A stretch of 64,000 bases of DNA from Pyrococcus sp. ST04. Lineage in GTDB: Archaea > Methanobacteriota_B > Thermococci > Thermococcales > Thermococcaceae. The stretch covers positions 227,348-291,347 of the forward strand of contig NC_017946.1 in the NCBI RefSeq assembly GCF_000263735.1. The letters are read 5' to 3'. The notes below the pieces were generated by a model, which saw nothing but the letters and a program-made list of their open reading frames with translations, ran no database searches and was not told the origin of the DNA. Position 1 is the first letter of the stretch, and every line of letters begins with the position of its first letter. Below are positions 2,675-26,796 of this stretch, in pieces. A program made the position numbers and the translations under genes.

Positions 2675-4620
2675 TGGATGAGTTTGTGAGGGCTTTAATC
2701 AAAAATAACTACCTCATAACCCCTTCAGCTTATTATCTCCTTGCTGAGCACTTTAGAAAGCAGAATTTTTCTCTATCTGAGCTAATAAAATTTGCAAAGA
2801 CTAAAGGGACTTTTATAATTGATGACCTAGTAGCTTCTGAGTTTCTTAAATTAAAAGAGCTTGAAGTTCCAGTGGAAACAAAACCCTCTTATATTTCCAG
2901 TGGAACTCCTGTTGAAAAAAGTTTAGTCTCTCTTGGAGAGGATAATATATCTGAAGAAACTAGTACTTCTGAAATGCAGAGTTCTATTTCCACTGGAGAA
3001 CCCTCCATAGAAATGAGTGAACAGCCCTCTTCAAGCGTTGAATCAAAGATCTCTGAGGAGATATTCCAGGGGGAGAGTTCTATTTCCACTGGAAGTGAAG
3101 GGGTTGCAGAGGGAGAAGAAGCAGAAATTATAGAAACTGTTGAGGAAGTTGCAAGCGTTCCTTCCAATGGAAGTGAATTTGAGAGTGAGGAAGAAAATGG
3201 GAATGGTGTAGCTGTCGTAGCTGATAAATATGGATTGCCAATGGTATACGAGCCCGAGGAAATAGTCGAGGAGAAGGAGTACTCTCTCTATGAAGATTTT
3301 GTCATTCAACCGAATCCCGAATTCAAGTTTGCTAAAATAACCCCCGAGTACGAGATAAAGTTTGATATAAGAAACTTCAAACTTAAGCCTCCAAAACCAA
3401 AAAATGGGAGTGGGAAAGAGGGTGAAATCATCGTTGAGGCTTATACATCCCTATTCCGGAGCAGACTTAGAAAGCTAAGGAGAATCTTAAGAGAAAATCC
3501 TGAACTTAATACTGTTGTTGATATTGGGAAGCTTAAGTATGTTAAGGGGGATGAAGAAGTTACGATAATAGGACTTGTCAACAGTAAAAGAGAAACGAAC
3601 AAAGGGCTAATATTTGAAATAGAAGACCAGACAGGTGTTGTTAAGGTGTTCCTTCCAAAGGATTCCGAAGACTACAGGGAAGCTTTCAAAGTTCTACCTG
3701 ATGCCGTGGTTGCATTTAAAGGTTTCTATTCTAAGAAAGGTTTATTCTTTGCAAATAGATTCTATCTTCCGGATGTTCCACTGTATAGGAAGCAAAAGCC
3801 ACCCTTGGAGGAAAAAGTATACGCTATCCTAATAAGTGATATTCACGTTGGAAGTAAGGAATTCTGCGAGAAGGCCTTTATGAAGTTCCTCGAGTGGCTG
3901 AATGGTTATGTTGAAAGTAAGGAGGAAGAGGAAATTGTGAGCAGGGTAAAGTACCTTATAATAGCGGGTGATGTTGTAGATGGTATTGGTGTTTATCCTG
4001 GCCAGTACTCTGACTTAATAATCCCAGATATATTTGATCAGTACGAGGCTCTTGCCAATCTATTGGCAAATGTTCCTGATCATATAACGATGTTCATTGG
4101 ACCTGGAAATCACGATGCCGCCAGGCCAGCAATTCCTCAACCAGAGTTCTATGAGGAGTATGCAAAGCCTATATACAAGCTTAAGAACGCTGTAATAATA
4201 AGTAATCCTGCAGTAATAAGATTACATGGTAGGGACTTTCTAATAGCCCACGGTAGGGGCATTGAAGATGTTGTTGCAAATGTCCCTGGACTCACTCATC
4301 ACAAACCTGGCCTACCAATGATTGAACTTCTTAAAATGAGACACCTGGCTCCAACCTTTGGAGAGAAAGTTCCAATAGCTCCCGATCCGGAGGATCTTCT
4401 TGTCATTGAAGATGTTCCCGACCTAGTTCAGATGGGCCATGTTCATGTTTATGATGCGGTAACATATAGGGGAGTCCAACTTGTGAATTCTGCGACGTGG
4501 CAGGCTCAGACAGAGTTTCAGAAGATGGTAAATATAGTCCCTACACCTGCAAAGGTTCCGGTTGTAGATGTCGAGAGTGCAAAAGTTGTTAAGGTTCTTG
4601 ATTTTAGCAGGTGGTGCTGA
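2674..4620 (+). CDS. polB: DNA polymerase D small subunit DP1 (3'-5' exonuclease)
   Basis: A 648-residue small subunit of the archaeal replicative polymerase PolD, giving proofreading exonuclease activity in complex with DP2. The order is an N-terminal helical domain (1-65), a long Ser/Glu/Thr-rich linker (about 66-200), an OB fold (about 285-370), and an Mre11-like phosphoesterase with metal motifs DIHVG (about 389), GDVVDG (about 432), GNHD (about 478), HGRG (about 525) and GHVHV (about 588). The start overlaps the orc1 stop and the stop overlaps the polC start (TGATG). The linker DNA carries five ORB-like elements (2866-3172), listed separately. Confidence 0.97.
   Translation: MDEFVRALIKNNYLITPSAYYLLAEHFRKQNFSLSELIKFAKTKGTFIIDDLVASEFLKLKELEVPVETKPSYISSGTPVEKSLVSLGEDNISEETSTSEMQSSISTGEPSIEMSEQPSSSVESKISEEIFQGESSISTGSEGVAEGEEAEIIETVEEVASVPSNGSEFESEEENGNGVAVVADKYGLPMVYEPEEIVEEKEYSLYEDFVIQPNPEFKFAKITPEYEIKFDIRNFKLKPPKPKNGSGKEGEIIVEAYTSLFRSRLRKLRRILRENPELNTVVDIGKLKYVKGDEEVTIIGLVNSKRETNKGLIFEIEDQTGVVKVFLPKDSEDYREAFKVLPDAVVAFKGFYSKKGLFFANRFYLPDVPLYRKQKPPLEEKVYAILISDIHVGSKEFCEKAFMKFLEWLNGYVESKEEEEIVSRVKYLIIAGDVVDGIGVYPGQYSDLIIPDIFDQYEALANLLANVPDHITMFIGPGNHDAARPAIPQPEFYEEYAKPIYKLKNAVIISNPAVIRLHGRDFLIAHGRGIEDVVANVPGLTHHKPGLPMIELLKMRHLAPTFGEKVPIAPDPEDLLVIEDVPDLVQMGHVHVYDAVTYRGVQLVNSATWQAQTEFQKMVNIVPTPAKVPVVDVESAKVVKVLDFSRWC
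2866..3172. repeat. Cluster of five ORB-like elements inside the DP1 coding region
   Basis: Five copies of the ORB core TTCCA(C/G/A)TGGAA in about 307 bases: 2866-2887 (plus-type), 2894-2909, 2977-3002 (minus-type, extended), 3074-3094 (minus-type, extended) and 3162-3172 (weak, central A). The two extended copies share AGAGTT-N2-ATTTCCACTGGA with the long ORBs; 2977-3002 matches the 26-base ORB segment at 21 positions. They encode the DP1 linker peptides VPVET, ISSGT, ISTGE, ISTGS and PSNGS. Motif presence is seen directly; Orc1 binding is inferred. Confidence 0.65.
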
Positions 4621-7600
4621 TGGAGCTTCCAAAAGAAATTGAAGAGTATTTTGAAATGCTTCAAAAGGAAATTGATAGGGCATATGAAATAGCAAAAAAG
4701 GCGAGAGCTCAGGGAAAGGATCCCTCACTAGATGTTGAAATTCCTCAAGCCACTGACATGGCTGGAAGAGTTGAGAGCTTGGTTGGTCCACCTGGTGTAG
4801 CTAAGAGAATAAGGGAGTTGGTGAAGGAATACGGTAAGGAAATAGCTGCTCTTAAAATAGTTGATGAAATTATAGAAGGCAAGTTTGGTGATTTTGGAAG
4901 CAAAGAAAAGTATGCCGAGCAGGCTGTTAGAACGGCACTTGCAATTCTTACCGAGGGGATAGTTTCGGCTCCAATAGAGGGTATAGCTGATGTTAAAATA
5001 AAGAGGAACACCTGGGCTGATAACTCTGAGTATCTAGCCCTCTACTATGCTGGTCCAATAAGAAGTTCGGGTGGAACCGCTCAAGCTCTTAGTGTTCTCG
5101 TAGGAGACTATGTTAGAAAGAAGCTTGGTCTGGACAGATTTAAACCAAGTGAAAAGCATATAGAAAGAATGGTTGAGGAGGTAGACCTCTATCACAGAGC
5201 TGTTACTAGATTGCAGTATCATCCATCTCCCGAAGAAGTTAGACTTGCTATGAAAAATATTCCAATAGAGATTACTGGCGAAGCTACAGATGACGTTGAG
5301 GTGTCTCATAGGGATGTTCCAGGTGTTGAAACTAACCAGTTAAGAGGTGGAGCTATCCTGGTACTGGCCGAGGGTGTTCTCCAGAAGGCAAAGAAGCTTG
5401 TGAAGTATATTGACAAGATGGGCATTGAGGGATGGGACTGGCTCAAGGAATTCGTTGAAGCAAAAGAAAAGGGAGAAGGGAAAGAGGATAAAGAGGAGAA
5501 AAGTGAGAATACTTCTCAAGCAGAGACTGCCGTTGAAGAACTTAGGGTTGAAGTTGAGAAGGGGTTTTACTATGAGCTCTATGAAAAGTTCAGGAGTGAA
5601 ATTGCTCCGAGTGATAAGTATGCTAAGGAAATCATAGGCGGAAGGCCATTATTTGCAGGTCCTTCTTCAAATGGTGGATTTAGGCTTCGCTATGGCAGAA
5701 GCAGGGTAAGTGGTTTTGCTACATGGAGCATTAATCCTGCAACAATGATACTTGTTGATGAGTTCTTAGCTATTGGGACTCAAATGAAGACCGAAAGGCC
5801 AGGGAAGGGAGCCGTTGTTACACCCTCAACGACTGCAGAAGGTCCAATAGTTAAGCTCAAGGATGGAAGCGTTGTGAGAGTTGATGATTATCAGCTTGCC
5901 CTAAAGATACGGGATAATGTTGAGGAAATTCTCTACCTAGGTGACGCAATAATAGCTTTTGGAGACTTTGTTGAGAACAACCAGACTCTTCTTCCTGCCA
6001 ATTATGTTGAAGAGTGGTGGATTCAGGAGTTTGTTAAAGCTGTGAAAGATATCTATGAGGTTGAATTGAGGCCTTTTGAAGAAAACTCTAAAGATGCCGT
6101 TGAAGAAGCAGCTGATTACCTTGACGTGGATAAGGACTTCCTCTTCAAAATGCTTTATGACCCTTTAAGGGTTAAGCCTCCAATTGAGCTTGCCATTCAC
6201 TTTTCCAAAATATTAGACATTCCGCTCCATCCTTACTACACACTCTATTGGAACTCCTTGGAACCTGAAGATGTAGAAGAGTTGTGGAGGATACTTAAAG
6301 ATAATGCTGAGATTGAATGGGACAGCTTTCGAGGAATTAGACTCGCAAAAAAGATTAAAATCTCCTTAGAGTCTCTTGGAAAGGCTAAGAGATATCTGGA
6401 ACTTCTCGGATTGCCTCATACTCTTAGTGATGGAGTTGTTATCATTGAGTATCCATGGAGTGCAGCTCTTCTAACACCTCTTGGCAATTTAGAGTGGGAA
6501 TTCAAAGCAAAGCCAATGTTCACGGTTATAGATATAATAAATGAAAATAATGACATTAAACTTAGAGATAGGGGAATCAGCTGGATTGGTGCTAGAATGG
6601 GAAGACCAGAGAAAGCTAAGGAGAGAAAAATGAAACCACCAGTTCAAGTTCTGTTCCCAATTGGTTTGGCTGGTGGATCTTCAAGAGATATAAAGAAGGC
6701 GGCCGAGGAGGGTAAAATAGCGGAAGTTGAAATAGCCTTCTTTAAGTGTCCGAAGTGCGGTCACGTTGGTCCTGAACATATTTGCCCAAGATGTGGAACA
6801 AGAAAAGAGTTGCTATGGACATGCCCAAAGTGTAAAGCTGAGTATCCGGAGGAGCAGGCTAAGGGATACGATTACACTTGTCCAAAGTGTAACATTAAGC
6901 TCAAACCCTTTGCTAAGAGGAAGATAAAGCCATCTGAGCTTCTGAACAGGGCAATGGAGAACGTTAAGGTTTATGGAGTAGACAAGTTGAAAGGCGTCAT
7001 GGGAATGACATCTGGCTGGAAAATGGCTGAACCTCTCGAAAAAGGACTTCTCAGAGCTAAAAATGAAGTTTATGTGTTCAAAGACGGGACGATAAGATTC
7101 GATGCAACAGATGCTCCAATAACTCACTTCAAACCAAGAGAAATTGGAGTTTCAGTAGATAAGCTGAGAGAACTTGGATATACGCATGACTTTGAGGGTA
7201 AACCACTAGTTAGTGAGGATCAGATCCTGGAGCTTAAGCCACAAGATATAATTCTCTCAAAAGAAGCTGGAAAATACTTATTAAGGGTTGCTAATTTTGT
7301 AGATGACCTGCTTGAGAAATTCTATGGCCTACCAAGATTCTACAATGCGGAGAAGATGGAAGATCTTATAGGGCATCTTGTTATAGGACTTGCTCCCCAT
7401 ACGTCCGCAGGAATAGTAGGGAGGATAATAGGATTCGTTGATGCATTAGTTGGATATGCCCATCCTTACTTCCATGCGGCTAAAAGAAGAAACTGCTTCC
7501 CTGGGGACACGAGAATTTTAGTTCAAGTAGATGGAAAGCCAGCTAGAATAACAATTCGTGAACTTTACGAGCTTTTCGAAGATGAGAGTTATGAGAAAAT

Positions 7601-9746
7601 GGTCTATGTTAGGAGAAAGCCCAAAAAGAACGTTAAGGTGTATTCCTATGACCCAGTGAGCAATAAGGTTGTCCTTACTGAGATCGATGATGTCATAAAG
7701 GCACCAACCACGGATCATCTCATTAGATTTGAGCTTGAGCTTGGCAGGAGTTTTGAGACTACTGTGGATCATCCAGTTCTAGTTTACGAGAATGGGAAAT
7801 TCATTGAGAAAAAGGCTTTTGAAGTTAGAGAAGGCGATTTAATCCTGATTCCAAGGCTTGAACTTCCAAGCGAGAATGCTGAGAAAATTGACGTTTTAGA
7901 AATTCTTTCATCTGAAGAGTTCAGTGAGATTTGGGATGGGATTGTTGTTAGGGGCATTGTCCCCTGGCTTCGCTCGAAAGGAGCAAATATTGTTGGGGAC
8001 TCACTACCAGTTTCAAAGCTTCTCAGAATTCTTAAGGATTTAAAGATACCCCTTGATGAAGTTCCAGACTGTAAACTTTTCTTAAAGGATGATGACGTTG
8101 AAATAAGTCGCTTTATTCCAATGAAGCCCTTCTTACGAGTACTTGGCTACTATCTTGCTAGGGGATATACTAAGAGTCCCAATGGGATTGAGTTCTTGAT
8201 AGAGAGTGATGCTGGAAGAGAAGATTTGGTGAGGTCACTTGGACTGGCCTTTGGTGGTAATATTGAAGTAGAGAGCAAAGATAATAAGGTGGTAATAAAC
8301 TCTAAGGTTGTTCACTTGCTCCTTGTAAAACTACTCAAGGCTGGAGAGAGTACTGACACTAAGAGAGTTCCAGCTTTTATGTTCTCTCTTGCTCCAGAAC
8401 TCGTTGCCGAATTCCTTAGGGCATACTTTAAGTACAAAGGAGAAGTCGTGGAGGAAACTTCGAGTGCAATTGTTTATGCCGACAACAGATTATTACTCGA
8501 GGACATTGAACTTCTGTTAATCTCAAAATTTGGCATCCTGGGTCACTATGCAGTGGGCAAAGATTCAGTGTATTCACTAAAAATCACGGGTGAGCACTAT
8601 CTAAAGTTCCTTGACAGTATTGGTCTCGATAGTAAGCGCAAAGTCGAGATTCCAAATGGGAAAAATCTTATTTCGCAAGAAACTGGATGGGTTGTTAGGG
8701 TTGAAAAAATTAAGTACCTTAAGCCAAAGGAGAAGTTTGTATTCTCACTAAGTGCCAAGGATTATCACAATGTTATAGTCAATGAAGGAATTTTGGTTCA
8801 CCAGTGTGATGGGGATGAAGATGCTGTAATGCTCCTTTTAGATGCTCTCCTTAACTTCTCCCGCTACTATCTTCCAGAGAAGCGTGGTGGAAAAATGGAT
8901 GCTCCTTTGGTCATTACTACTCGGCTTGATCCGAGAGAAGTTGATAGCGAGGTTCATAATATGGACATAGTTAGATATTATCCACTTGAGTTTTATGAAG
9001 CTACTTATGAACTTAAGTCTCCAAAAGAGCTAGTTGGAGTAATTGAGAGGGTTGAAGATAGACTAGGAAAGCCTGAAATGTACTATGGAATAAAGTTTAC
9101 TCATGATACAGATGATATAGCACTTGGTCCCAAAATGAGCCTCTACAAGCAGTTGGAGGATATGGAAGAAAAAGTTAGGAGGCAATTGAACCTTGCAAGA
9201 AGGATTAGAGCTGTTGATGAGAACTATGTTGCCGAAACAGTTCTTAATTCTCATTTAATTCCAGATCTGAGAGGTAATTTGAGAAGCTTTACAAGGCAAG
9301 AGTTCCGCTGTGTTAAATGTAATACCAAGTTTAGAAGACCTCCTATGGGAGGTAAGTGTCCAGTATGTGGTGGAAAGATAGTTCTCACGGTAAGTAAGGG
9401 AGCTATTGAGAAATACCTAGGAACCGCTAAGATGCTTGTTACGGAGTATAAGGTTAAGAATTACACGAGACAGAGAATTTGCCTAACGGAGAAGGACATA
9501 GATGCCTTGTTTGAGCATTTATTCCCGGAAACTCAGCTGACATTGGTTGTTAATCCAAACGATATTTGCCAGAGAATGATAAGGGAGAGAACCGGTCATG
9601 TAAGTAGTGGTGGACTATTGGAGAACTTTAGGTCAAATAATGCTGAGAACAAGAAGGATTCCGATAATAGACCTAAGAAAAAGGCAAAAGAAAAGCCAAA
9701 GAGGAAGAAAATCATAAGTTTAGAGGACTTCTTCTCTTCTCGCTAA
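4620..9746 (+). CDS. polC: DNA polymerase D large subunit DP2, with intein
   Basis: Catalytic subunit of replicative PolD. I start it at the ATG at 4620, coupled to the DP1 stop as TGATG, instead of the GTG three codons upstream; MELPKEIEEY is the familiar family N-terminus. The precursor is 1708 residues: 437 of intein and 1271 of mature DP2. Visible are a Lys/Glu-rich linker near 280-305, a zinc-binding region with several CPKC pairs (about 708-775), the catalytic DGDED motif directly after the intein, a C-terminal zinc finger (CVKCNTKF to CPVCGGK) and a C-terminal PCNA-binding-like motif ISLEDFF. Last gene of the coupled orc1-polB-polC set. Confidence 0.97.
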   Translation: MELPKEIEEYFEMLQKEIDRAYEIAKKARAQGKDPSLDVEIPQATDMAGRVESLVGPPGVAKRIRELVKEYGKEIAALKIVDEIIEGKFGDFGSKEKYAEQAVRTALAILTEGIVSAPIEGIADVKIKRNTWADNSEYLALYYAGPIRSSGGTAQALSVLVGDYVRKKLGLDRFKPSEKHIERMVEEVDLYHRAVTRLQYHPSPEEVRLAMKNIPIEITGEATDDVEVSHRDVPGVETNQLRGGAILVLAEGVLQKAKKLVKYIDKMGIEGWDWLKEFVEAKEKGEGKEDKEEKSENTSQAETAVEELRVEVEKGFYYELYEKFRSEIAPSDKYAKEIIGGRPLFAGPSSNGGFRLRYGRSRVSGFATWSINPATMILVDEFLAIGTQMKTERPGKGAVVTPSTTAEGPIVKLKDGSVVRVDDYQLALKIRDNVEEILYLGDAIIAFGDFVENNQTLLPANYVEEWWIQEFVKAVKDIYEVELRPFEENSKDAVEEAADYLDVDKDFLFKMLYDPLRVKPPIELAIHFSKILDIPLHPYYTLYWNSLEPEDVEELWRILKDNAEIEWDSFRGIRLAKKIKISLESLGKAKRYLELLGLPHTLSDGVVIIEYPWSAALLTPLGNLEWEFKAKPMFTVIDIINENNDIKLRDRGISWIGARMGRPEKAKERKMKPPVQVLFPIGLAGGSSRDIKKAAEEGKIAEVEIAFFKCPKCGHVGPEHICPRCGTRKELLWTCPKCKAEYPEEQAKGYDYTCPKCNIKLKPFAKRKIKPSELLNRAMENVKVYGVDKLKGVMGMTSGWKMAEPLEKGLLRAKNEVYVFKDGTIRFDATDAPITHFKPREIGVSVDKLRELGYTHDFEGKPLVSEDQILELKPQDIILSKEAGKYLLRVANFVDDLLEKFYGLPRFYNAEKMEDLIGHLVIGLAPHTSAGIVGRIIGFVDALVGYAHPYFHAAKRRNCFPGDTRILVQVDGKPARITIRELYELFEDESYEKMVYVRRKPKKNVKVYSYDPVSNKVVLTEIDDVIKAPTTDHLIRFELELGRSFETTVDHPVLVYENGKFIEKKAFEVREGDLILIPRLELPSENAEKIDVLEILSSEEFSEIWDGIVVRGIVPWLRSKGANIVGDSLPVSKLLRILKDLKIPLDEVPDCKLFLKDDDVEISRFIPMKPFLRVLGYYLARGYTKSPNGIEFLIESDAGREDLVRSLGLAFGGNIEVESKDNKVVINSKVVHLLLVKLLKAGESTDTKRVPAFMFSLAPELVAEFLRAYFKYKGEVVEETSSAIVYADNRLLLEDIELLLISKFGILGHYAVGKDSVYSLKITGEHYLKFLDSIGLDSKRKVEIPNGKNLISQETGWVVRVEKIKYLKPKEKFVFSLSAKDYHNVIVNEGILVHQCDGDEDAVMLLLDALLNFSRYYLPEKRGGKMDAPLVITTRLDPREVDSEVHNMDIVRYYPLEFYEATYELKSPKELVGVIERVEDRLGKPEMYYGIKFTHDTDDIALGPKMSLYKQLEDMEEKVRRQLNLARRIRAVDENYVAETVLNSHLIPDLRGNLRSFTRQEFRCVKCNTKFRRPPMGGKCPVCGGKIVLTVSKGAIEKYLGTAKMLVTEYKVKNYTRQRICLTEKDIDALFEHLFPETQLTLVVNPNDICQRMIRERTGHVSSGGLLENFRSNNAENKKDSDNRPKKKAKEKPKRKKIISLEDFFSSR
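7494..8804 (+). mobile_element. DP2 (Pol II) intein with degenerate LAGLIDADG endonuclease
   Basis: A 437-residue in-frame intein between RRN and CDGDED, residues 959-1395 of the precursor. Splicing block A is CFPGDTRILV with Cys1; block B is FETTVDHPVLV; blocks F/G are YHNVIVNEGILVHQ, ending in Gln where most inteins have Asn; the +1 extein residue is Cys. The homologous P. abyssi Pol-II intein is known to splice with a C-terminal Gln. Two endonuclease-like helices are recognisable (VLGYYLARGY and LRAYFKYKG), but the acidic catalytic positions are Arg and Lys, so the endonuclease is probably dead. Confidence 0.93.
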
Positions 9747-17522: not shown

Positions 17523-20126
17523 TCACTTCTTCCCTATTAGCGTGAACTGGGCTAGCAAGGCTTCAAGCTGTATCATTTCATTTGCACCTTCAACGAGTCT
17601 GAAGTTGTACTCTCCTATTTTGTCTGCGAGCTGGACTTTTTTGGGCTCTGATATTGGTAGGTTGAACACTTCCTTGTGCATCTGAACCAAGACGTCTTCT
17701 CCGCTCAACCCCTGTTTCAGAAGTATCTCTCTGAGTTTTTCCCTAGCTTTGAGGAAGTTTCCTTCGAGTGCTAGGAGCATCATCTGCCTAACATCCTCGG
17801 GCCTTGCCCTGCTAGCAACCATAAAAACATTTTCATCTGTTATTTTCTTGTCTAAAGCTGCTGCGGCTTGCAGTATGTTTATAGCTCTTCTCATATCTCC
17901 TTCCGCTATATACAGAATCGCTTGGAGTCCCTCCTCTGTTAATTCCAATCCTTCATTTTCAGCTATGAACTTCAGCCTTTTTGCTATATCTTCATCCCTC
18001 AAGGGTCTAAAGCGGAAGATTGCACATCTGCTCTGTATGGGCTCAATTATCTTGGAGGAGTAGTTGCAGCTGAGTATAAACCTCACGTTGATGGAGAACA
18101 TTTCCATAGTCCTCCTCAGGGCCTGCTGGGCATCCTGCGTCAGTGCATCTGCCTCGTCGAGGAATATTATTTTGAAGCTTGCTCCGCCTATGGGCTTAGT
18201 CCTAGCGAATTCCTTTACTTTCTCTCTAATAACGTTTATCCCGCGCTCATCGCTCGCATTCAGCTCAAGGAAGTTGTGGCGCCAGTTCTCGCCGAAAAGC
18301 TCCCTAGCAAGGGCCAAAGCAGCAGTTGTGTTGTGGAGAACCGTTGGGAGGTTCCCACCTATGAAGTTGTGGTAACCAGGAACGTGCAGGTCATAGATTA
18401 TGAAGTCCCCCTTAAGCTTCTCAATCTCAACTATCTCATCCCATAGAAGTTCATTTTGGTTTAGGAAGATCAGGTAAGCTATTCCTCTCTTAAGTTTTTC
18501 ATCACTCAGTATGTCCCTAAGGAGTTTCAGCTCTGCTTTCCTAATCTCTTCAAGGACATCTATCCTCTCTGTGTTGCCTTCAAGGATTCCCTTGACGCTT
18601 GAGTTCCACATCCCAACGAGTCTTCCAATTTCTGCATAGCTGGAATACTTCCTAGCAAAGAGGCGCATTGCTTCTACGGTTTCCTTCATATCAATTCCAA
18701 GTGCCTCTGCTATTTTCAGGTAGTTCCTTAAACTTGGCCTTCTCTCGCCCTTTATATACTTAAGAATTCTATCTACCCTTATTCCTGTCTTTTTGGCTAT
18801 TTCTTCCTTTCTCTTCCGAATCTCTTCCCAGTCGATTATGAGACTCCTAGACAGGGCATTTTCCAATCTCTCAAGCTCGCTGAGGCGGTGATATATCTCC
18901 TTCATTAGTTCCCATGATATCTTTCTAGCTTCCTCAGGGCTCCAGTGAGCCTTGTTCTCGTGGAATGTTAGCCTGAGTTTGTTCCTAACGTAAGAGATCA
19001 ACTCTCTATCGATGTAAAGGTAGCCAATGTTCTGATTAGAGCCTCTTATAAGGGTTTCTGCCTTCTTTCTCTTATCTTCCACTGAGAAGCCAACTTCGGT
19101 TAAGAAGCGCGAAACATTGTTCTGGCCAGAGATTACCACGTAATAATGGGAGCGTCCCTTTTCATGCCTTTCTTTAACTCTGCTTATGATTCCTAGTCCG
19201 GATAAGGCGTATGAAATCTGCTCTGCCATTTCTTTGCTGGCGGTGGAGAGAACTATGCCATCTTTCTCAACACTGGCGTCACAATCAAAGTATGCCCTTA
19301 GGAAGGAGCGCAGGCCCTTCCATCCCTGGGGAGGTATGTAAATCTTATCGGCCTTTTTACCAACGAGACCAAGGTTTTTAACTAGTTCCTTGGCCTTCTT
19401 TGAGTTCACGTAGACATAAGGTGTGCGGTTTTCCCGGGTCTTCTCTCTTATCTTTGCATCGGGGAAGAGCTTCTCTGTTAGCTCCATGAAGCGTCTTCTA
19501 AGCCTCGTGTTCGTGTTTGTGAATATTATAACGTTGCTCTGCATATTGGCATAACCACTTCCCATGAAGTATCCGAGCCATTCCGCGAGAGGATCCTCCT
19601 CGAGGATCACAGGGAGAAAGCGCGGAACAGCTAGCTTGTCACCGGGCCTTAGCTCCTCGGCTTTCACCCATTCGATTTTACCATCTTTCCTGTTAACGAG
19701 GAGAGGGTGATAGGGTGTTACCTTGAGCTCCCTTCCGAGTTTCGTTCTTATTCTGACTAACTCGTTTGTTCTATCCTTGTAAACGTACTCCACAGGCAGC
19801 TCCTTAATCTTACCGTCTTCGTCAATACCAAGAACTACAAGACCTTTGACAGGTGTTGGCCCGAATCTGCCTCCAGATATCCTCTCAACGAGCTCCCCTA
19901 TTGTAGTTAGCTCGCCGTTAACTATGACTTTTGCTTCTCCAGTAAGACACTTTCCAACACCTGGTGGTCCAGCAAAGAGTAGGTGAGGCATTGAACCAGT
20001 CTTAACGTAGTGTTTAAGCCTCTTGACGATATGTTCCTGTCCAACTATATCGTCAAGCCTTTGTGGTCTATACTTTTCAACCCAGGGCTTTTCAAGAACT
20101 TTAACTTCCCTGACTTCTTCGCCCAT
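17523..20126 (-). CDS. rfcS: Replication factor C small subunit, with intein
   Basis: The small clamp-loader subunit, four copies per complex. The precursor is 867 residues from the ATG at 20126 (AGGTG upstream; the GTG at 20132 is too close to it): 540 of intein and 327 of mature RFC-S. The N-extein holds [18 protein letters not shown] and the P-loop GPPGVGK; the intein sits after this Lys and the C-extein resumes [11 protein letters not shown]. Walker B IIFLDEAD, the SRC-type motif QSRCAIFRF and the collar domain follow. Activity needs splicing to rebuild the P-loop as GPPGVGKTT. GC content is raised in the intein and the adjoining C-extein. Confidence 0.97.
18330..19949 (-). mobile_element. 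RFC intein with LAGLIDADG endonuclease
   Basis: A 540-residue intein inserted in the clamp-loader P-loop. Block A is [14 protein letters not shown] with Cys1; block B is [11 protein letters not shown]; blocks F/G are [16 protein letters not shown] and VLHN; the +1 residue is Thr. Endonuclease motifs are [10 protein letters not shown] and [10 protein letters not shown]; the second keeps its Asp and the first has Ser at the usual acidic position. A helix-turn-helix-like segment ([20 protein letters not shown]) lies between the endonuclease and the C-terminal splicing blocks. GC is above 50% over long stretches, against about 35-45% in most neighbouring genes, which suggests acquisition from a GC-richer host. 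Confidence 0.94.
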
Positions 20127-20209
20127 GCTCACGCACCTAATTCACTACAAGAAATATGGGAAAGTTAAATCTTGCGGCACTATGGTGAGAACTTTTGTGT
20201 TCTACTTCG

Positions 20210-25296: not shown

Positions 25297-25326
25297 CTGG
25301 CTCTCTTAAATATCTTGGGACCTGAG

Positions 25327-25767
25327 ATGGATGAAAAGATTGGCCTCTTTAAAAAGCCAGCGGATTTCGATTTGGAGAAGGCAATTGACTTAGTCTCCTC
25401 TGAAGAAACTGGGGGCATAGTGGTATTCTTGGGAAAGGTGAGAAACGAAAATATGGGAAAACGAGTTAAAAAACTCATATATGAAGCTTATGAAGAAATG
25501 GCATTGGCCGAAATGGAAAGAATAAGAAAGGAGGCCCTGGAAAAGTTTCCAATAAAAGATGCTTTAATATGGCATAGAGTGGGTGAGCTTGAAATTGGGG
25601 AGAACACGATTCTCGTGGTTGTGTCGGCCAAGCATAGGAGAGAGGCCTTTGATGCTTGTGTCTGGATTGTTGACGAGGTTAAGAAGAGGGTTCCGATATG
25701 GAAGAGGGAGGTAACTGAGGAGGGAGAGTTCTGGATTGAGGGTGATAGACATATTCCAGTTAAGTGA
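25327..25767 (+). CDS. moaE: Molybdopterin synthase catalytic subunit MoaE
   Basis: A 146-residue large subunit of molybdopterin synthase, which transfers sulfur from thiocarboxylated MoaD to precursor Z. Family segments are GGIVVFLGKVRNEN, the YEAYEEMA motif, IWHRVGELEIGE, SAKHRREAF and the C-terminal VPIWKREV with the catalytic Lys. The start is the ATG at 25327; the TTG at 25315 would add four residues. The MoaD partner is not in this window. It supports tungstopterin enzymes together with MoaA. Confidence 0.94.
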   Translation: MDEKIGLFKKPADFDLEKAIDLVSSEETGGIVVFLGKVRNENMGKRVKKLIYEAYEEMALAEMERIRKEALEKFPIKDALIWHRVGELEIGENTILVVVSAKHRREAFDACVWIVDEVKKRVPIWKREVTEEGEFWIEGDRHIPVK

Positions 25768-25875
25768 AAGAAGCTTTCTTTTCAATTTTTTACTCACTAC
25801 TTTGAGTGGTGTGTAAAATCCGTATAGAAAAAGTTAATATAAATCGTTGCTATCTTTATTTTTTGGTGAGTGATA

Positions 25876-26796
25876 GTGGAGAAAGCGAAAACAATAAGTC
25901 ATGAAGTGCCCGTTAGTGGTGCGAGAATAACCACTATTTCAAAACCCCCTTGGGTAGCAATTCCGCATACTGGAAAACTTGAGAGAATAATCCTCTTAAT
26001 AGGTTCTGGAAAGGGTGTCTTCTCGGACTCATCTTATATTCCAAGGAGCATTGGTTGTATTGGTAACAATAAGATAACACTGTATAGGGAGAGAATTCCA
26101 TTGGAGAAGTTCATGAAAATAATCGATGAGTTTGCAGAGATAGCAAAGGGAGGAGAAGTTTACATAACTAACTATGATAGCATTGAGGAAGCAGTTAGAC
26201 TCGCCAAATATGCAGCTTCCAAGGATCTTAAAACATATTTAATTGCCCTATTTGAGGATGTTCAAAGGATACCTAAGGATAGGAAGTTTAAAGTTGTTTG
26301 TGAGATATTCTTTAAAGAACTGGACTCATTGAACACTATAAACGACCATGACATTGACGTGCTTTTAGTTATCGCAACATATGAGCAGTATCGTGAGTTA
26401 GTAGAAAAGGAATTAGATTTTGCTGGAGAAATTTGGATAGACCTCCTATATCCTGGTTCTCTTAGAGGTCTTACCTTTAATCCAATAGAAGTAAGGAAAG
26501 TCACAAATCCCACAGCAACCCAGTATAATAACTGTATGGCTGGTTTAGTTGCTATAACACCCGATGGATTTGCTGTTCCTTGTCCTCTACTCAGAAAGTT
26601 TGTTGTTGGTGATATAACTAAGGAAAGTTTGAGAAAAATACTGAAAAAACAGAGACTAAAGAAATTCTGGAAACTTACCAAAGACTATATAGAGGGCTGT
26701 AATAAGTGTTCTTTGAGATATATTTGCCATGACTGTAGGGCTTTGGAATATCAAGCTACGGGGGACATATTTAGCATGGAGTTTTGCCTGTTGTAG
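25876..26796 (+). CDS. SPASM-domain protein with degenerate radical SAM core
   Basis: A 306-residue protein. The C-terminus is a full SPASM-type auxiliary cluster domain: NC-MAGLVAITPDG-FAVPC, then C-x2-C-x5-C-x2-C (CNKCSLRYICHDC) and a last FC. The N-terminal half reads like a radical SAM barrel (IPLEKFMKIIDEFAEIAKGG), but the CxxxCxxC motif is absent; the matching stretch is GVFSDSSYIPRSIGC. It therefore probably cannot cleave SAM. The GTG at 25876 follows TTGGTGAG. Two KaiC-like genes follow. It may be a peptide-binding or electron-transfer relative of peptide-modifying enzymes; function unknown. Confidence 0.72.
   Translation: MEKAKTISHEVPVSGARITTISKPPWVAIPHTGKLERIILLIGSGKGVFSDSSYIPRSIGCIGNNKITLYRERIPLEKFMKIIDEFAEIAKGGEVYITNYDSIEEAVRLAKYAASKDLKTYLIALFEDVQRIPKDRKFKVVCEIFFKELDSLNTINDHDIDVLLVIATYEQYRELVEKELDFAGEIWIDLLYPGSLRGLTFNPIEVRKVTNPTATQYNNCMAGLVAITPDGFAVPCPLLRKFVVGDITKESLRKILKKQRLKKFWKLTKDYIEGCNKCSLRYICHDCRALEYQATGDIFSMEFCLL

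Follow-up and report, generated by a model that had tools for sequence, protein, structure and literature searches.

A protein encoded by a single-copy gene of Pyrococcus sp. ST04 represents an archaeal family of pseudo-radical-SAM/SPASM proteins in which the CX3CX2C motif is missing and the former SAM site looks, from conservation, rebuilt rather than decayed. The family thus offers what appears to be a plain example of a radical-SAM enzyme stripped of its defining chemistry, with a site that was remodeled and then strictly conserved throughout essentially all of the Thermococcaceae. From gene context we tentatively favor (at a probability of about 40%) a role as an Fe-S accessory of tungstopterin synthesis over its main rival, a role with exported proteins or peptides, which comes close behind. 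The gene lies within a stretch of 64,000 nucleotides, referred to below as the window, whose relevant features are collected in Table 1.

Table 1. Features of the gene and its surroundings; positions are those of the window.
Feature	Position	Strand	Remarks
moaE, molybdopterin synthase large subunit	25315..25767	+	PF02391 6e-40
Palindromic operator TTTTACTCACTACTTTGAGTGGTGTGTAAAA	25788..25818		conserved upstream of most orthologues
Putative BRE/TATA element AGAAAAAGTTAATATAAA, the gene's own promoter	25826..25843	+	read by eye; upstream of orthologues in nearly all genera
Pseudo-radical-SAM/SPASM coding sequence	25876..26796	+	306 aa from GTG 25876; start in ORF list GTG 25870 (308 aa)
Former cluster loop, residues 53-66	26026..26067	+	aligned with the CX3CX2C loop of intact relatives
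N101-Y102-D103, where the SAM-holding GGE stood	26170..26178	+	conservation and MAFFT
SPASM domain	26533..26787	+	cysteines C222, C238, C277, C280, C286, C289, C306

GTG 25876 is probably the true start, and was favored over GTG 25870 because orthologues begin at the residue that it encodes. Residue numbers are counted from GTG 25870 and drop by 2 with the shorter start. The C-terminal domain was recognized as SPASM by Pfam (PF13186, 2.3e-9, 37.9 bits for a cut-off of 21.5) and by TIGR04085 (39.1 bits for a cut-off of 27). With its seven cysteines in the arrangement C222-X10-G-X4-C238 ... C277-X2-C280-X5-C286-X2-C289 ... C306, it bears out the preliminary description, which had claimed a full SPASM set; the sixth cysteine is spaced CX2C (CHDC) as opposed to the usual CX3C. 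The cysteines predict that this tail should hold two Fe-S clusters. By analogy with anSME, three cysteines (C222, C238 and C289) would coordinate AuxI, possibly leaving an open iron site, and four would coordinate AuxII. No Pfam or NCBIfam profile matched the N-terminal part above its cut-off, the radical-SAM profile PF04055 failed to match the protein in the Pfam search, and PADLOC gave no credible match. A PDB sequence search returned no confident relative, its top match being anSME (E 0.34, within SPASM). As had been stated from the initial reading, CX3CX2C was absent both from the protein and from the open frame upstream of it.

Kinship with radical-SAM enzymes, suspected at the outset, emerged from profile comparison and structure prediction. 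Aligned by hhalign, a profile of 28 family members matched one of eight intact radical-SAM/SPASM proteins over barrel and SPASM alike (probability 99.65, E 4e-25). An AlphaFold model for which only family members were used (pLDDT 70, weak over SPASM) resembled EpeE, SuiB, SkfB and, more weakly, MoaA in a Foldseek search of the PDB. A second model, from a deeper alignment of 78 sequences including intact relatives (pLDDT 91.8, pTM 0.91), resembled anSME and SuiB; the first is the more independent test of the fold, because the alignment behind the second held intact relatives. TM-scores to radical-SAM structures were moderate, about 0.42-0.57. Together, alignments and models identify the protein as a true radical-SAM relative with a homologous (beta/alpha)6 barrel. 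The suggestion that it had kept only its auxiliary cluster domain must therefore be abandoned: the barrel is present, and the former SAM site is among its most conserved parts.

The hhalign and, independently, the MAFFT alignments placed RSxGC on the KCxHC of the intact proteins. Accordingly, S60 stands in for the second cluster cysteine and C63 corresponds to the third, and the first has been lost. The MAFFT alignment also set TNYD against TGGE. Conservation was assessed in 96 family proteins from about 90 Thermococcaceae genomes. CX3CX2C occurred in none of them, and the loop I-P/R-R-S-x-G-C-x-G-N (IPRSIGC in the ST04 protein) in all 96, with R59, S60, G62, C63, G65 and N66 invariant. C63 is the only invariant cysteine outside SPASM. 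All seven SPASM cysteines are kept in the family, C289 in 95 of 96; the sole loss observed was in genome G041, which has CHDP for CHDC (L155:123-1070). Forty-seven columns were invariant or had one exception, and 23 of these fall in residues 25-103, in the stretches KPPW, GxGxGxFxE after strand 1, IxRSxGCxGN and NYD. The last is near-invariant (Y102 and D103 invariant), and the SAM-binding GGE motif is absent. It is because about half of the near-invariant residues line the former SAM site that the site looks rebuilt.

Conservation and the second model place D103 and D130 after strands 2 and 3, and E145 and D191 near the ends of strands 4 and 6. Acids at such strand ends face the pocket in barrels of this type, and the predicted secondary structure suggests that those of strands 2, 3, 4 and 6 do so here. 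The glycine-rich loop, the invariant Ser/Cys pair and the invariant acids would thus make up a new pocket, for which we infer a ligand. Standard radical-SAM chemistry should not be expected from the family. That the protein carries out radical-SAM catalysis from a non-standard cluster site is very improbable: other motifs do serve some superfamily members, as in ThiC and Dph2, but here a single invariant cysteine (C63) lies outside SPASM, and GGE no longer occupies the SAM-binding position. The conserved pocket bears equally on the proposal of a redox or Fe-S sensor, or an electron conduit, whose barrel would be a docking surface only. We consider this proposal unlikely. It would agree with the complete set of SPASM cysteines and with a conserved operator suggestive of regulated expression (see below), but a mere docking surface would not need a former active-site pocket as conserved as the cluster domain, and the protein carries no fused DNA-binding or signaling domain.

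Homologues, full-length or truncated by contig ends, were recovered by an alignment-based scan of genome collections in 92 of 94 Thermococcaceae genomes; a single-sequence scan of the collections had found none. The two genomes without a homologue are incomplete assemblies (75% and 80%). Since both also lack moaE, the absences fit one missing stretch of assembly. No full-length homologue was found in 21 genomes from other families of the class Thermococci. Orthologues with an intact motif, the finding that would have pointed to a local mutation, were sought and not encountered (0/96), so the loss of the motif is not local. The likelihood that the gene once encoded an ordinary radical-SAM enzyme and suffered local mutation or is in decay is negligible. 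Nothing was found in favor of this reading for this gene, although a second copy has decayed in another genome (G077), and the same replacement in all 96 orthologues, together with the 47 near-invariant columns, rules it out. With its SPASM tail kept and its new pocket unusually conserved, the protein family is therefore real, and it probably functions in these hyperthermophilic archaea.

In genus g4 the gene occurs twice: one copy adjoins moaE and has no operator, and the other adjoins an Lrp-like gene and has a similar upstream element. Genomes of g4 keep one or both (L122-L126, L177-L187); in G077 it is the moaE-side copy that decayed while the other persists. Elsewhere in the window, apparent inteins were noted by eye in the genes for the replication factor C small subunit (17523-20132, minus strand) and the DNA polymerase II large subunit (4611-9746, plus strand).

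The case for tungstopterin synthesis begins with gene order. Of the 90 genomes with both genes, 84 have moaE as the immediate upstream neighbor in the same orientation. Thermococcus shows the series moaD, moeB, an oppositely oriented lipoprotein gene, moaE and the pseudo-radical-SAM/SPASM gene; judging by position, the moaD-moeB pair would correspond to UblB (TK2118) and its E1 (TK2117). UblB serves the tungsten cofactor of GOR in T. kodakarensis, where roughly half of the molybdopterin derivative forms independently of any Ubl (PMC11323500). The ST04 genome encodes just one further SPASM protein, a W_rSAM_matur protein (TIGR04317, 506.7 bits for a cut-off of 380) whose gene lies beside moeA. 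We tentatively propose that the family acts next to MoaE as an Fe-S accessory without SAM chemistry, which might hold the pterin or pass electrons or sulfur to it. Against this reading, the gene does not adjoin moaE in genera g2 and g6, and neither does the second copy in g4; transcription would start from a separate promoter, with an operator common to surface-protein genes that was not seen at moaA, moaD or moaE; other Thermococci hold moaE without this gene; and the MoaE encoded here looks intact. A more specific and improbable version would make the protein a non-radical Fe-S sulfur donor or holder for molybdopterin synthase, working via the orphaned C63 and explaining the half of T. kodakarensis molybdopterin that is independent of sulfur carriers. 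An unexplained sulfur route has been reported in tungsten-cofactor synthesis (PMC11323500), and if the link with moaE is real, an unrecognized component is added to that pathway.

The promoter region is what keeps the exported-protein or peptide alternative alive. A 31-bp palindrome with the consensus TTTTGCNNACT-N9-AGTNNGCAAAA, followed by AAAATCNGNATAGAAAAAGT and a TATA-like element, precedes the gene in nearly all genera, including those with moaE elsewhere. Allowing up to two mismatches, 39 sites were found in 26 genomes, while a reversed control gave 0. Other genes preceded by the operator encode lipoproteins, secreted proteins of about 400-1100 aa, DUF4855 proteins and a cysteine-bearing protein of 75-78 aa with a divergent methyltransferase gene. 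This small protein reads LPC...YYGGIPID..C..C...VC (L199:1235-1462(-), L207:1230-1466(-), L247:3144-3380(-)) and could be a peptide or an Fe-S protein. In two Thermococcus genomes a gene of about 70 aa with the operator is convergent with moeA (L237:3467-3796(+); L240, about 3250-3500(-)); in one of the two it adjoins apparent tungstate-transporter genes. In G093 a weaker site (three mismatches) stands upstream of an ABC exporter. Among the Pyrococcus genomes searched, the element was clearly seen only with the pseudo-radical-SAM/SPASM gene. In Thermococcaceae the palindrome appears to mark a regulon of limited size and changing content, made up of surface and exported proteins, of which this gene is the most widespread member (window 25788-25818; L231-L250). 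To judge from these sites, the gene is linked to exported proteins at least by regulation.

A candidate for the regulator of the gene is an AsnC/Lrp-type HTH protein of about 305 aa, encoded tail-to-tail with it in most genera and elsewhere in Pyrococcus (L034:8904-9821(-); G000:C1:402455-403366). As a functional partner the Lrp-like gene was rejected: Pyrococcus has it at an unlinked position, so its adjacency in other genera is not enough to tie it to the family.

In the exported-protein or peptide alternative, the family would act, as GwsS presumably does, as a non-radical SPASM partner that binds exported proteins or peptides and helps them mature. We consider this, and the peptide-binding chaperone suggested from the initial reading, to be possible, with less confidence than the tungstopterin role. 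Its SPASM is of the 'FRYxCHDCR' type found in peptide-maturase SPASMs and in GwsS; the operator is common to genes for lipoproteins, secreted proteins and the 75-78 aa cysteine-bearing protein, and its weaker site lies upstream of an ABC exporter. In the g4 genome G076, moreover, the second copy lies near PqqD-like, radical-SAM/SPASM and exporter (drrAB) genes, and in another g4 genome, G080, near a radical-SAM gene and exporter fragments. On the other side, the family is without a PqqD-like N-terminus, which is found both in GwsS and in the intact relatives, and a search of the ST04 genome for a PqqD-type peptide-binding domain found none. No precursor-like gene adjoins; the intergenic gaps on both sides are about 110 bp and the upstream one is taken up by promoter sequence, leaving scant space for a peptide gene. 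Finally, the set of surface-protein targets changes from genome to genome, and a search of Pyrococcus genomes found none of them, whereas the gene is universal. On balance the tungstopterin role is still the one we prefer. Either way, the family makes the role of a SPASM protein without SAM testable in a genetically tractable host.

The preliminary description had called such a protein rare, which overstated the case: the motif is absent in 7 of 7 examples of GwsS (TIGR04193), and NCBIfam names further pseudo-rSAM/SPASM families. A search of the literature on pseudo-rSAM, GwsS and the presumed locus tags TK2113-TK2115 found nothing useful. GwsS was the best NCBIfam match, at 64.1 bits in the SPASM region and below its cut-off of 175 bits. 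Like the present family it has a SPASM with CHDC and no CX3CX2C, but its profile aligns with the family over SPASM only, and its N-terminal region can be aligned with the PqqD-like region of intact proteins, a region that the family lacks. The ATP-grasp ligase and GG-type precursor peptide that neighbor GwsS were not seen among the neighbors read here. Intact PqqD-rSAM-SPASM proteins with CHDC (L058, L061-L063, L071-L074) are homologous over barrel and SPASM (E 4e-25), but they retain both CX3CX2C and GGE and carry an additional N-terminal region, assigned to PqqD by Pfam on L058. TIGR04150, TIGR04304 and TIGR04347 are pseudo-rSAM/SPASM families by their names only; the first two match SPASM weakly, with scores far under their cut-offs. 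The tungsten cofactor oxidoreductase radical SAM maturase of TIGR04317 sits beside moeA much as the family member sits beside moaE, but it is an intact radical-SAM enzyme whose similarity to the family is weak and confined to SPASM. Pseudo-radical-SAM/SPASM proteins are thus a known kind of protein, among which the present family falls under no NCBIfam equivalog and has a rebuilt pocket.
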